Shown here piece after piece: positions 2,114-31,508 of a DNA stretch of 64,000 nt (the stretch's first letter is position 1; each line of letters opens with the position of its first letter). Both the position numbers and the translations under genes were made by a program. Below the pieces are notes generated by a model. The model searched no databases, was not told the origin of the DNA, and saw only the letters and a list, made by a program, of their open reading frames with translations. The stretch lies in contig JAQVIJ010000001.1 of assembly GCA_028695735.1 (NCBI GenBank), positions 113,081 to 177,080 on the forward strand, in the 5' to 3' direction. This DNA comes from Deltaproteobacteria bacterium (GTDB taxonomy: Bacteria; Desulfobacterota; Dissulfuribacteria; Dissulfuribacterales; DYLC01).

Positions 2114-2821
2114 TTACAATCTCTCTCCGAAAATTGCCGTGCCGACACGCACTATAGTTGCGCCTTCCTCCACAGCCACTGCAAAATCATGAGACATGCC
2201 CATGGACAATTCAGCAAGGCGCAATGTCCCGAACCTGTCCTGCATATCATCCCTCAACCGCCGCAACGCCCGGTACCACAGCCTGACCTGCTCCAAATCC
2301 TCCGAATAGGGTGTTATGGTCATCAAGCCCCTGACAAAAACACGGGACAGGGGTTGCATTTTCTGTAGAAAATCAGGCAGTTCCCCCGGAGCAAGCCCGT
2401 TCTTAGCAGGATCACCCCCTATATTCACCTGCACCAGAACGTCCAGATGTGTATTCATGGCCTCACACCTGCGATTCAGGCCACAAGCCAGATCCAGGCT
2501 ATCCAGGGTCTCCAGACAATGAAACCTGCCCGGTGCCTGTCTGGCCTTATTGGTCTGAAGATGCCCTATAAAATGCCATTCGATACGGGAAAACAAGGCC
2601 TCATCCGCAAGAAGCATTCTGACATCCTCGATCTTGGCACAACCTTCCTGCATGTAGTTCTCGCCGAACAGAAACTGGCCCAAATGAACCGCCTCAACTA
2701 TAGTAACGGCGGACACGCCTTTGGTGACAGCCATCAGGCGCACATCCGCCTCATTCCGGCCCGTCTTGAGTGCCGCCCTTCTTATTACCTCTCTGACCTC
2801 ATTCAATCTTTCCGCTATCAT
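2114..2821 (-). CDS. YggS/PROSC family pyridoxal phosphate homeostasis protein
   Basis: Single-domain fold type III (alanine racemase-like) PLP-binding protein of 235 aa, the usual length. The PLP-lysine is K34 in LMAVTKG, and the phosphate-binding end shows SMGMSHDF and a C-terminal RVGTAIFG, both hallmarks of the family. Members bind PLP without a known strong catalytic activity and keep free PLP and amino-acid pools balanced. It lies 15 nt upstream of queD on the same strand. An AAGGA ribosome binding site supports ATG at 2821. Confidence 0.93.
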   Translation of the reverse strand: MIAERLNEVREVIRRAALKTGRNEADVRLMAVTKGVSAVTIVEAVHLGQFLFGENYMQEGCAKIEDVRMLLADEALFSRIEWHFIGHLQTNKARQAPGRFHCLETLDSLDLACGLNRRCEAMNTHLDVLVQVNIGGDPAKNGLAPGELPDFLQKMQPLSRVFVRGLMTITPYSEDLEQVRLWYRALRRLRDDMQDRFGTLRLAELSMGMSHDFAVAVEEGATIVRVGTAIFGERL

Positions 2822-27465: not shown

Positions 27466-27678
27466 TTACTTAACAGATGCCCTCATCGCCTCGTCCGCAA
27501 CCCGGCGGACATCAGCAATACATCACTTACCCTTGGGATTCTTATGGCTGCAATCGCATTTGCCGCCTTTTTTAGCCGCCATAATGGCCTCCAGAATGGA
27601 AGAACGGCCGTGAGCCTGCACATCCCTGACAATATCCTCGTCCGTATAACCAAAACACCAACAGATCTTTTCAGCCAT
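27466..27678 (-). CDS. BFD-like/CopZ-N [2Fe-2S] selenoprotein (TGA = Sec52)
   Basis: Small Cys-rich protein, 70 aa if the TGA at 27523-27525 is read as selenocysteine. Residues 1-51 hold ICWCFGYTDEDI (C6, C8), HGRSSI and CDC (C41, C43), then NPKGK. In relatives this is followed by Cys-Cys and a short helix; here the codons after NPKGK are TGA TGT, then IADVRRVADEAMRASVK and TAA. A hairpin of bacterial SECIS type follows the TGA. If TGA is a true stop, the product is 51 aa and lacks the last cluster ligand. The gene starts 9 nt after the permease stop, with AAAAGG as ribosome binding site. Probable role: iron-sulfur or metal chaperone/redox partner of the permease. Family resemblance is from memory, not a search. 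Confidence 0.82.
27492..27525 (-). promoter_or_regulatory. putative SECIS element with its UGA
   Basis: On the minus strand TGA (27525-27523) is followed, after an 11-nt gap, by the stem TGTCCGC/GCGGACG closing a CGGGTT loop. The loop begins 18 nt after the UGA and has G at its second position, which fits the known bacterial SECIS rules on loop distance and a G in the first two loop bases. Confidence 0.75.
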
Positions 27679-27687
27679 AGCAACCTT

Positions 27688-28647
27688 TTATGATAAAATA
27701 AAATTAAACAGATAGCCCACCAGAATTATGGCCACGGAGACTGTGCCAAAAAATATGATGAGCAGTTCTTTTTTTAATACCTGAGTGAGGATGGTGGCCT
27801 CCGGAAGTGACAAAGCGGTAACCGCCATCATAAAGGCCAGAGTCGTGCCCAGAGGCAAGCCCTTGGACATCACGGCCTGCACCACGGGAATGACGCCAGC
27901 AGCATTGCTATAAAGGGGCACGCCGATCAAAACTGCTATGGGCACAGCCAAGGGATTGCCAGGGCCTGCGTATCGCAATAAGAAATCCTCAGGCACATAC
28001 CCATGAATCAGCGCACCTACGCCGATACCGCCCAACACATAGGGCCAGATGCGGCGCAGAATGTCCTTGACATAGCCCCTGGCGTATTCGATGCGCTCCC
28101 GCCAGCTCATGACCGCTTCCTGCACCTCTCCCATGCGAATCTGCCAGACATAGTCCTGCACATAGCGCTCAAGATTGAGTTTGCCGATGACAATGCCGGC
28201 CACAATGGCCACCAAAAGCCCTGATATAAGATATAACCCTGCAATCTTCCAGCCAAAAAGGCCGAAAAGCAGCACCAGGGCCACCTCGTTTACCATGGGA
28301 GATGATATGAGAAAGCTGAATGTCACTCCCAAGGGAATGCCCGACTCCACAAAACCTATAAACAGGGGGCAGGCGGAACAGGAGCAAAACGGTGTGACCA
28401 CCCCCAGCATGGCAGCCAGTATGTTGCCCAAAAAGAGTTTTTTGCCACTCAAAAAGCGGCGAGTCCGCTCAGGTGTGAAGAAACTGCGAATAATGGAGAC
28501 GAAGAAGATGATGACTGTCAGTAAGAAAAAGATCTTGGTGGTGTCTTCTATGAAGAAATGCAGGGCCTCGGTCAGGTGCCTGCCCTTTTCCATGCCCAAC
28601 CAGTCATAGACCACCAGATTCGCCAGCATAGTGAATATCTTCAGCAT
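27688..28647 (-). CDS. DUF318/ArsP/SO_0444-type permease
   Basis: 319-aa membrane permease with about eight helices in two halves. The signature FCSCSACPLF (about residues 87-96) and SSPMVNEVAL in the first half, and VPLYSNAAGVIPV in the second, place it in the family that includes ArsP and SO_0444 metal or metalloid exporters. Its start overlaps the end of arsR by 7 nt, and the arsR 3' end supplies the AAAGGAGG ribosome binding site. Being behind an ArsR regulator with a CVC box, arsenic(III), antimony(III) or a related soft metal is the likely signal; the transported species cannot be told from sequence. Confidence 0.9.
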   Translation of the reverse strand: MLKIFTMLANLVVYDWLGMEKGRHLTEALHFFIEDTTKIFFLLTVIIFFVSIIRSFFTPERTRRFLSGKKLFLGNILAAMLGVVTPFCSCSACPLFIGFVESGIPLGVTFSFLISSPMVNEVALVLLFGLFGWKIAGLYLISGLLVAIVAGIVIGKLNLERYVQDYVWQIRMGEVQEAVMSWRERIEYARGYVKDILRRIWPYVLGGIGVGALIHGYVPEDFLLRYAGPGNPLAVPIAVLIGVPLYSNAAGVIPVVQAVMSKGLPLGTTLAFMMAVTALSLPEATILTQVLKKELLIIFFGTVSVAIILVGYLFNFILS

Positions 28648-28994
28648 ACATCCTCCTTTACATCACAGACCTTGCCGCACACCGCTACAAGCCTCTTCCG
28701 CAATTTTTCTATCTCAGCATTCCCCTCCAGCCAGCGAGAGACACACTCCAAAAGCTCCTTGGCCTCGCCATCAGGGTTTGAATGAAGACGATAGTCCACA
28801 CGCATGCCGTTTCTTTCCGATTCCACCAGGCCTGCATGCTCCAATATGCGCAGATGCTTGGAGACAGTGGGCTGGGCCAGGCCCAAAACCGCTGTCAACT
28901 CACAGACACAGGCAGGCTGAAATGCCAAAAGTTTGAGTATTTTAAAGCGGGTGGAGTCCGCAACTGCCTTTAGGGAGGTGATGAGCCTTTTCAT
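28641..28994 (-). CDS. arsR: ArsR/SmtB family metalloregulator
   Basis: 117-aa winged-helix repressor. The metal-binding box in the third helix is present as PACVCEL (C29, C31), and the tail has three further Cys (C106, C110, C117), a pattern of As(III)/Sb(III)-type sensors. The DNA recognition helix is QPTVSKHLRILE. I place the start at ATG 28994: two upstream in-frame ATGs lie within or beyond the operator. No ribosome binding site precedes it, and the predicted transcription start is at or next to the ATG, so the message may be leaderless. It begins the operon arsR-permease-selenoprotein-thioredoxin and should repress itself. Confidence 0.93.
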   Translation of the reverse strand: MKRLITSLKAVADSTRFKILKLLAFQPACVCELTAVLGLAQPTVSKHLRILEHAGLVESERNGMRVDYRLHSNPDGEAKELLECVSRWLEGNAEIEKLRKRLVAVCGKVCDVKEDVC

Positions 28995-29001
28995 AAATAG
29001 C

Positions 29002-29030
29002 AATATAGCCATATGGCTATAAGCTGTCAA
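29002..29030 (-). promoter_or_regulatory. arsR promoter overlapped by a 16-bp palindromic operator
   Basis: On the minus strand TTGACA (29030-29025), 17 bp and TATATT (29007-29002). The spacer holds the perfect palindrome ATAGCCATATGGCTAT (29005-29020), which overlaps the -10 box. This is the usual layout of ArsR-family operators. The -10 box is 7 nt from the arsR ATG. Confidence 0.8.
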
Positions 29031-29054
29031 GGGGCAGTGACTTTTCATATTTCC

Positions 29055-29132
29055 CCCTTTTCATTGCAAACTCTTGGCAATTGATATTTAATATGCCAAT
29101 TCCATTTTCGGTATTTTCTGGAGGCAATCATG
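29055..29132 (+). promoter_or_regulatory. upstream region of the cysteine synthase/CysRS fusion, duplicated before murJ
   Basis: CCCTTTTCATTGCAAA and TTGGCAATTGATATTTAATA, ending in a GGAGG ribosome binding site and ATG. The stretch 29055-29092 recurs at 35443-35480 with two mismatches. A promoter is likely here (TTGCAA with an AT-rich TATTTAATA) but the boxes are not canonical. Confidence 0.55.
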
Positions 29133-31508
29133 GAAGCCGACTCCATATTAAGTAAAATTGGTAACACCCCCCTCATTCCCATAAGCCGTCTCAACCCCTA
29201 TAAAAATGTTCGCATACTGGCCAAGATGGAGGCCTTCAACCCAGGCGGCTCCATAAAGGACCGCATCGCCCTCTCCATGATTCAAAGGGCGGAGGCCAGG
29301 GGAGAACTCTCGCCCAATCGCATTATATTGGAGGCCAGCAGTGGCAATACAGGAATCGGGCTGGCCATGGTCTGCGCCGTAAAGGGGTATCGCTGCCTCA
29401 TAGCCATGAGTGAATCGGCCAGCATAGAACGCAGGCAGATTATGCAGGCATTTGGGGCAGAGATACTTTTGACACCTGCCAAACAAGGCACAGATGGGGC
29501 CATTGAAGCGGTCTATAACCTGGGCAGAGAATACCCTGACCGCTATTTTCTCACGGATCAGTTCAATAATCCTGACAACTGGCTTTCTCATTACAACGGC
29601 ACCTCCCTGGAGATATGGGAACAGACTCACGGCCAGGTCAATGTAATAGTGGCCACCATGGGGACCACAGGCACCCTGATGGGCATTACCAGGCGCATGA
29701 GGGAGTTGAATCCGCAGGTCCGTATGGTGGGGGTGGAGCCGTATCTCGGCCACAGGATTCAGGGGCTTAAAAACATGAAGGAGTCCTACCGGCCAGGGAT
29801 ATACGATAAAAACCTGCCCGATGCCATTGTCAACATTCACGATGATGAGGCCTTTGAATACGCCAGGCGTCTGGCAAGGGAAGAGGGGCTCTTTGTGGGC
29901 ATGAGTTCAGGTGCAGCCTTTGCAGCGGCCCTGAAGGAGGCCGCCCTGCTTAAACAAGGCATTGTGGTGGTGATCTTTCCAGACGGCGGAGAGCGCTATT
30001 TGAGCACAGGTCTCTTCTCTGTGGCCTCGCAAAAAAGGAAGGCGCAAAAGGAAGAGGGCCTCTGTTTTTATAACAGCATGACTTTAAAAAAGGAACGGTT
30101 TGAGCCGGCTGATGCAGAAAAACGCATAGGGATGTATAGCTGCGGCCCCACTGCCTATGAAGAGACACACTTAGGGTTGTGCCGACGAGTGCTGGTCTCT
30201 GACCTGATTCAGCGCCTTTTGGAGGCCAAGGGCATGAAGGTGGTGCATGTGATGAACATCACTGATATCGATGACAAGACCATTCGAGAGGCCATCGCAA
30301 ACCATGTCTCCCTTTCCGAGCTCACTCAGGGCTATATTCAAAGGTTTCTAAACGACCTCAAGTTGCTGAATGTACGCCCGGCCACCTTCTATCCCAAGGC
30401 CAGTGAACACATAGAAGAGATGCTGGAAATCACTCGAGAACTCCTGCAAAAGGGCTATGCCTATGTAAAACACGGCTCTATCTATTTCGACATCTCCAAA
30501 CTCTCCAATTACGGCAGGCTTTCCCGCATAGATGCAAATGGGCTGGACATAGGCCGCACCGTTGACCTGGACAACTACGAAAAGGACAACCCAGCGGACT
30601 TTACCCTCTTTAAGAGGGTCACCCTGCAGGAGCTGAAGTATGGCATAGGGTTTCAGACGGAGTGGGGCAGAGTGAGGCCGGGCCTGCACATCGAGTGCGT
30701 GGCCATGTCTCGAAAATACTTAGGCGACCTCTTTGACATTCACACCAGCGACAAGAGCCTGTTATTCCCCCATCACGAAAACGAGATAGCCATCTCCACG
30801 GCCCTGACCGGCAAACCCCTTGCCCGCTACTGGCTGCACAGCGACCTGGTCTATTGGAAGGGCAAAAAGATCTCCAGGCAAAACGACAACATCATCACTT
30901 TAAGAGAGCTTTTAGAACAGGGCTGGTCTGGCCGAGAGATTCGCTTTTTCCTTCTAAAAACCCACTACAGAAAGCCCATTCACTACGCCTGCACTCAAAT
31001 AAAGGAGGCGGCCAGGCTTCTTAGAAAGATAGATGAGTTCTGGTATGAGGTGGTATTGGCGCCCACACAGGACACAGTGAAGAACCATGCCACAACCCTG
31101 GAGGCCATCTCCAATCTCTTGAATGCAGTCAAAAAGGAGTTTTTTAATGCCCTGGAAGACGACCTCAATGTCTCCAATGCCATCACCGCCCTTTTGGGGT
31201 TCATGAAGGGTGTTTACGCTATAAAGCAAAGATCACCCCTTTTAAGGCCGGAAAAGGAGGCCATCTCCAGCTTTTTATTGGAGATAGACGACATACTGGG
31301 CATTCTAAACAGAGAGGTCCTGGCGCCCGATTATCTGCCGCAGACCGCCCAGAAACTGCTTGATCTGCGTGAACAGGCCAAAATAGCCCAGGATTGGGCC
31401 AAGGCCGACGGCCTCAGGCAGGAGTTATATGCCATGGGGTTTCAGGTCATGGATACTCATTGCGGCTCCTACTGCATACCCAATGCAAACACCAACCTCT
31501 GCAAGTGA
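29130..31508 (+). CDS. cysteine synthase - cysteinyl-tRNA synthetase-like fusion
   Basis: 792-aa two-part protein. Residues 1-300 are an O-acetylserine sulfhydrylase/cystathionine beta-synthase-type PLP enzyme: K43 in NPGGSIKDR, SSGNTG (70-75), GTTGT (178-182) and SSGAA. Residues about 311-785 are a cysteinyl-tRNA synthetase-like class I domain with the zinc ligands C338, C523, H548 and E552. However, the HIGH motif reads H347-L-G-L350 and KMSKS reads K580-I-S-R-Q584, both eroded. Start ATG 29130 has CTGGAGG upstream. Possible roles are a working but divergent CysRS channelled with cysteine synthesis, or a ligase paralogue. The C-terminus and stop are in a sequence repeated before murJ. Confidence 0.88.
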   Translation: MEADSILSKIGNTPLIPISRLNPYKNVRILAKMEAFNPGGSIKDRIALSMIQRAEARGELSPNRIILEASSGNTGIGLAMVCAVKGYRCLIAMSESASIERRQIMQAFGAEILLTPAKQGTDGAIEAVYNLGREYPDRYFLTDQFNNPDNWLSHYNGTSLEIWEQTHGQVNVIVATMGTTGTLMGITRRMRELNPQVRMVGVEPYLGHRIQGLKNMKESYRPGIYDKNLPDAIVNIHDDEAFEYARRLAREEGLFVGMSSGAAFAAALKEAALLKQGIVVVIFPDGGERYLSTGLFSVASQKRKAQKEEGLCFYNSMTLKKERFEPADAEKRIGMYSCGPTAYEETHLGLCRRVLVSDLIQRLLEAKGMKVVHVMNITDIDDKTIREAIANHVSLSELTQGYIQRFLNDLKLLNVRPATFYPKASEHIEEMLEITRELLQKGYAYVKHGSIYFDISKLSNYGRLSRIDANGLDIGRTVDLDNYEKDNPADFTLFKRVTLQELKYGIGFQTEWGRVRPGLHIECVAMSRKYLGDLFDIHTSDKSLLFPHHENEIAISTALTGKPLARYWLHSDLVYWKGKKISRQNDNIITLRELLEQGWSGREIRFFLLKTHYRKPIHYACTQIKEAARLLRKIDEFWYEVVLAPTQDTVKNHATTLEAISNLLNAVKKEFFNALEDDLNVSNAITALLGFMKGVYAIKQRSPLLRPEKEAISSFLLEIDDILGILNREVLAPDYLPQTAQKLLDLREQAKIAQDWAKADGLRQELYAMGFQVMDTHCGSYCIPNANTNLCK

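Follow-up and report, generated by a model that had tools for sequence, protein, structure and literature searches.

A predicted CopZ-type [2Fe-2S] selenoprotein, truncated by standard ORF calling, in an ars operon of the Dissulfuribacterales

Within a 64,000-nt stretch of DNA (the window) from a member of the order Dissulfuribacterales, phylum Desulfobacterota, a short reading frame in an ars operon is interrupted by a TGA, which raises the question of whether this codon ends a 51-residue protein or is decoded as selenocysteine (Sec) within a longer one. On the minus strand, the frame starts with the ATG at 27678, runs through 51 sense codons to the TGA, and then continues for 18 sense codons to a TAA at 27468-27466, which lies 30 nt ahead of the ATG (27435) of a thioredoxin gene. 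These boundaries had been given in a preliminary description of the locus, and a second reading found them to be exact; the truncation that it had predicted is also seen, as standard ORF calling at this locus yields a 51-aa ORF. With TGA translated as U, the read-through product is MAEKICWCFGYTDEDIVRDVQAHGRSSILEAIMAAKKGGKCDCSHKNPKGKUCIADVRRVADEAMRASVK. Recognition of this product corrects an annotation in which ORF calling would otherwise yield the 51-aa fragment or nothing. The features of the locus are collected in Table 1.

Table 1. Features of the selenoprotein locus and its operon, numbered by position within the 64,000-nt window
Feature	Position	Strand	Basis
ArsR/SmtB-family regulator, first gene of the operon	28641..29048	minus	NF033788, 85 bits, over cut-off
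ArsP-type permease, 319 aa, directly upstream of the selenoprotein gene	27688..28647	minus	PF03773 (ArsP_1), 255.5 bits
Predicted CopZ-N/BFD-like [2Fe-2S] selenoprotein, 70 aa	27466..27678 (TAA stop included)	minus	translation with TGA=U
TGA codon read as selenocysteine, residue 52	27523..27525	minus	codon shared by relatives; Cys in TGA-less homologues
Putative bSECIS apical hairpin, stem TGTCCGC/GCGGACG, loop CGGGTT	27492..27511	minus	fold z -3.8; stem pairing
Extended hairpin with lower stem	27484..27520	minus	minimum-energy fold
ArsE/MTH895-type thioredoxin-like protein, 77 aa	27202..27435	minus	TIGR00412, 96.3 bits, over cut-off; Thioredoxin_3, 92 bits

If the TGA were a genuine stop, at which standard ORF calling does indeed halt, the protein would be 51 aa long and any conservation beyond the codon would be incidental. 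The relatives of the gene argue against this. A search of 198 relatives gave 35 matches, counting that of the window itself, with a single in-frame TGA each, and when 395 genomes of the phylum were surveyed, exactly one TGA was present in 63 of 69 family matches, a count in which the position of the TGA was read for fetched loci and the unfetched matches, the weakest among them, were scored by the presence of a TGA. When 48 distinct TGA-bearing loci were read in detail, the TGA was found at the identical codon (xPxxxUC) in 47. The sole exception (locus L077 of genome G030, 2290-2478, minus strand) is a degenerate-looking copy of the gene, with its TGA elsewhere and conserved, key residues lost.

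Homologues without a TGA, which belong to other phyla, have Cys-Cys at the Sec site; the 30 Cys-form loci that were read come from Planctomycetota, Neomarinimicrobiota, Acidobacteria, Cyanobacteria, and others. It had been suggested that homologues might end before the TGA or that relatives might fail to keep the 18 codons beyond it, but neither was the case: homologues run past the site, the 18 downstream codons are conserved, and Cys stands at the TGA position in the TGA-less forms. In 47 loci, moreover, these codons are kept both as protein and as RNA structure. The source genome (G000) also encodes the Sec machinery, and all four genes that the preliminary description had proposed to look for, selA, selB, selC (a tRNA-Sec with a UCA anticodon), and selD, were found. 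Relatives keep the TGA, the codons beyond it, and the hairpin described below, which places the observation far beyond chance. Taken together, these comparisons indicate that the gene almost certainly encodes a real selenoprotein, in which UGA codon 52 would be decoded as Sec through SelB and Sec-tRNA(UCA); that the TGA is a genuine stop is extremely improbable.

A scan of named genomes with the single protein found no relative, and an alignment-based scan of named genomes found 35; the pattern behind the latter demanded Cys-Cys, and consequently these 35 are uninformative as to which Cys is dispensable. A viral scan gave none. Separately, the selD gene (G000:C5:312661-313581) carries one in-frame TGA, and SelD itself appears to be a selenoprotein.

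Outside the window, the source genome contains a second SelB (G000:C2:676472-678454; 273 bits, over the cut-off), which adjoins a tRNA-Sec-like gene with a GCA (Cys) anticodon, itself over the gathering score for the tRNA-Sec family (L048, G000:C2:676472-678567); a normal tRNA-Cys and the normal tRNA-Sec(UCA) are present as well. Of the 46 genomes of the order, 4 have this pair, namely G000 and three more (L183, L184, L185); its tRNA is 90 nt long and nearly constant, and in three of the four genomes it adjoins formate-dehydrogenase-like or thiosulfate-reductase-like molybdoenzymes. In two of the three further genomes, it lies directly 3' of a gene encoding RVCHAPS, a formate-dehydrogenase-like motif in which the Cys codon is TGC. 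In G000, a thiosulfate/polysulfide-reductase-like molybdoenzyme comes next, and its Cys181 (TGC) aligns with a Cys of 2VPW that is taken here to be a metal ligand; no convincing hairpin was established for this molybdoenzyme. The combination of the second SelB with the GCA tRNA suggests recoding of Cys codons as Sec, which is known but rare, and the pair may be more unusual than the CopZ-type selenoprotein.

The hairpin that follows the TGA had been proposed to be a bacterial SECIS element, and its stem, its loop, and its spacing are present as they were given, with the loop starting 18 nt after the TGA. The fold has an energy of -19.9 kcal/mol, which none of 200 dinucleotide shuffles equalled (z -3.8). 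Across 47 Sec forms, the six stem pairs are standard in 268 of 282 cases, against 182±5 expected and a maximum of 201 in 2000 trials under a null of random synonymous codons weighted by local usage; with uniform codon choice as the null, 26 sequences gave 150 of 156 pairs against 103±4, although all of these counts come from related sequences and are not independent events. Cys forms have, on average, 2.8 of the 6 pairs at the same offset. Within the stem, the codons GTC CGC show almost no variation, although other codons could encode the amino acids, and one compensatory change, from C-G to A-U, retains the pair. A shuffle control was only mildly exceeded, as is expected where most stem positions are invariant. 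Taken one sequence at a time, the homologues mostly give modest fold z-scores, and thus the case for the hairpin rests on the comparative pairing test. The lower stem of the extended hairpin is not conserved in the consensus fold, and no Rfam family was found over the region. The pairing test indicates that the hairpin after the TGA is under selection at the RNA level.

What kind of protein is encoded? The product aligns with positions 86-137 of the 138-position model NF047645 (CopZ_Nterm_CC) at 49.8 bits (E 4e-13; cut-off, 100), with NF045877 (CopZ_Nterm_CU, the Csac_0668 (seleno)protein) at 30.5 bits against a cut-off of 190, and with Fer2_BFD (PF04324) at 19.8 bits against a gathering score of 26. 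There is also a weak alignment to the N-domain of Archaeoglobus CopZ (2HU9), in which the TGA is matched by the first Cys of GRCC. In most Cys forms, the domain is preceded by roughly 80-130 residues; the Sec form of the window lacks these. A confident AlphaFold2 model was obtained (pLDDT 91); Foldseek found no significant match to it (E >= 2.2), the best being a weak one to Pseudomonas Bfd, the [2Fe-2S] bacterioferritin-associated ferredoxin. As judged from the alignments, the protein is the cluster half of a CopZ N-terminal domain without the part that precedes it, and it is very probably a selenoprotein of 70 residues that belongs to the CopZ N-terminal [2Fe-2S] family in its GxUC form.

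In 28 of 28 aligned sequences, Cys6, Cys8, Cys43, and Cys53 are Cys, while Cys41 is absent from some Sec and some Cys forms. On the basis of this conservation, Cys6, Cys8, Cys43, and Cys53 are predicted to hold the [2Fe-2S] cluster. The preliminary description had proposed that Sec replaces either the last cluster ligand or a redox Cys. Sec52 aligns with the first Cys of the Cys-Cys pair, the second Cys does not vary among the aligned forms, and one distant homologue (L072) has Ser-Cys in place of Cys-Cys; because of the invariance of the second Cys and this one homologue, Sec52 is probably beside the last ligand. Thus, replacement of the last ligand is not favored, and replacement of a redox Cys fits better. 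A few variants therefore suggest that Cys53 is probably the fourth ligand and Sec52 its neighbor, where it would present a soft, highly nucleophilic selenolate. An alternative is that Sec52 itself is the fourth [2Fe-2S] ligand and shifts the potential of the cluster. It is located in the ligand segment, and in the accessible part of a 2026 review the known CU form has its Sec second (PMC13188914), so that either position can be Sec. However, here it is the first Cys that is replaced while the second is invariant, and the distant homologue with Ser-Cys also speaks against Sec52 as a ligand, which makes this alternative unlikely.

In the window, the gene order of the operon is ArsR, the ArsP_1 permease, the selenoprotein, and the ArsE-type thioredoxin, which keeps its CxxC and has no Sec. 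The TGA, the hairpin, the domain, and the decoding machinery support the BFD-like/CopZ-N-type selenoprotein that had been described, here in an ArsR-ArsP-thioredoxin operon. Among the 19 Dissulfuribacterales genomes with a TGA-bearing copy, ArsP is directly upstream of the selenoprotein gene in 15, one of which has a divergent permease, and in several relatives the neighborhood also includes a pI258-type arsenate reductase and a TauE/SafE permease. ArsR together with the ArsP_1 permease and the ArsE-type thioredoxin, and with the arsenate reductase in some relatives, identifies this as an ars operon kept in relatives. Outside the order, 12 loci were examined, and at none of them does the gene adjoin ArsP; it is found there beside a flavin reductase and unrelated housekeeping genes, among others. 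Two of these loci (L053 and L066) have an ArsP-thioredoxin pair nearby, within about 1-3.5 kb, accompanied by ArsR in L053. The ars context is a feature of the order Dissulfuribacterales and not of the family. The proposed tie between selenium and metalloid resistance consequently holds within the order (15 of 19 beside ArsP) but not elsewhere (0 of 12 loci), and since the gene is found outside ars operons beyond the Dissulfuribacterales, a metalloid role is not general to the family.

Two further observations concern the neighborhoods. Divergent from the ars operon, a single 792-aa ORF (29130-31508, plus strand) fuses a CysM-like cysteine synthase to a cysteinyl-tRNA synthetase (CysRS); in the order, 35 of 46 genomes carry the fusion near full length and 3 more carry it partially, and most of the 35 also have a separate CysRS. 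In another locus (L062, 5759-5995, plus strand), a short ORF whose product resembles Cys-rich proteins of the C_GCAxxG type lies just upstream of the CopZ-type selenoprotein gene and gives the impression that it, too, may end early at a recoded TGA.

These findings have led to a model for the function of the protein in the Dissulfuribacterales. In this model, a small, soluble, cytosolic protein would use its cluster and selenolate together, either to transfer electrons or to act on a soft metal(loid) by binding or reducing it. It would act before the ArsP permease, a possible acceptor, with the ArsE-type thioredoxin as a possible reductant or partner and ArsR as the switch. A specific role in handling metalloids is suggested only tentatively and is doubtful. 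More improbable still is its most detailed version, a dedicated Sec/[2Fe-2S] metalloid carrier or reductase in which Sec52 would bind As(III) or an organoarsenical, the cluster would give an electron, and the cargo would be handed to ArsP for efflux; if this were true, the selenoprotein would gain a defined step in an ArsR-controlled operon. Alternatively, the protein may be a general redox or Fe-S selenoprotein, such as an electron donor or a carrier of clusters or copper, that is in the ars operon by happenstance and has no specific metalloid role. The 12 of 12 loci outside the order that do not adjoin ArsP, with their flavin reductase and housekeeping neighbors, agree with this explanation, as does the biochemistry of a relative, since the CopZ N-domain acts on copper. 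That the gene is so closely coupled to ArsP (15 of 19), in several families of the order, however, suggests selection for a role there, and the general explanation stands at about an even chance. The locus offers a testable case, within an operon of the arsenic type, of a selenocysteine beside a predicted Fe-S cluster.

How does this protein compare with known systems? It resembles NF047645 and Archaeoglobus 2HU9 in the CxC...C...NPxGxCC pattern over model positions 86-137, but it lacks the preceding domain, which in Archaeoglobus CopZ is zinc-binding, has Sec instead of Cys, and falls outside NF047645 by score, as it does outside Fer2_BFD. Like Csac_0668 (NF045877), it has a [2Fe-2S] domain of the CopZ N-terminal type in which one residue of the Cys pair is Sec; however, NF045877 is a 161-position model with Sec second (CU), whereas the window protein has 70 aa and Sec first (UC), and it is not a member. 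The SAO (SaoE) and SO_0444-type systems likewise combine an ArsP_1-family permease with selenoproteins and have been suggested to act in metal(loid) handling, but the permease of the window scores 135.6 (cut-off, 325) and 107.1 (cut-off, 300) and belongs to neither family by those models.

A search of titles and abstracts on ars operons and selenoproteins listed nothing specific, and an earlier description of this neighborhood by Haft and co-workers is possible; in the accessible parts of the GOS and comparative genomics papers, CopZ is not mentioned. The accessible part of the 2026 review lists a "(2Fe-2S)-binding protein (copper chaperone CopZ family)" with the motif GxUC in form 1 and CU in form 2 (PMC13188914), and that of a 2022 review also lists both forms (PMC9312934); in both, the reference protein for form 1 is WP_245779778.1. 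There, the 2026 review does not mention an ars operon context for form 1, and ArsR is absent from it. The form 1 domain is of the CopZ-like Fer2_BFD type (cd10141). The window protein, under the cut-off for NF047645, probably has the same type of domain, and it places Sec before Cys as form 1 does (G-x-U-C; NPKGKUC in the window), a likeness of motif and domain description rather than of sequence identity to WP_245779778.1. Thus, the gene that was described as an unannotated selenoprotein is indeed unannotated, but its family is not new: as far as the accessible text of the review goes, it is very probably a member of the CopZ-family selenoproteins already catalogued, GxUC forms included (PMC13188914). 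To these it adds a widespread set, with 63 matches that carry a TGA in 395 genomes sampled from the phylum, in a family that provides a clean comparison of Cys forms with Sec forms and their hairpin.
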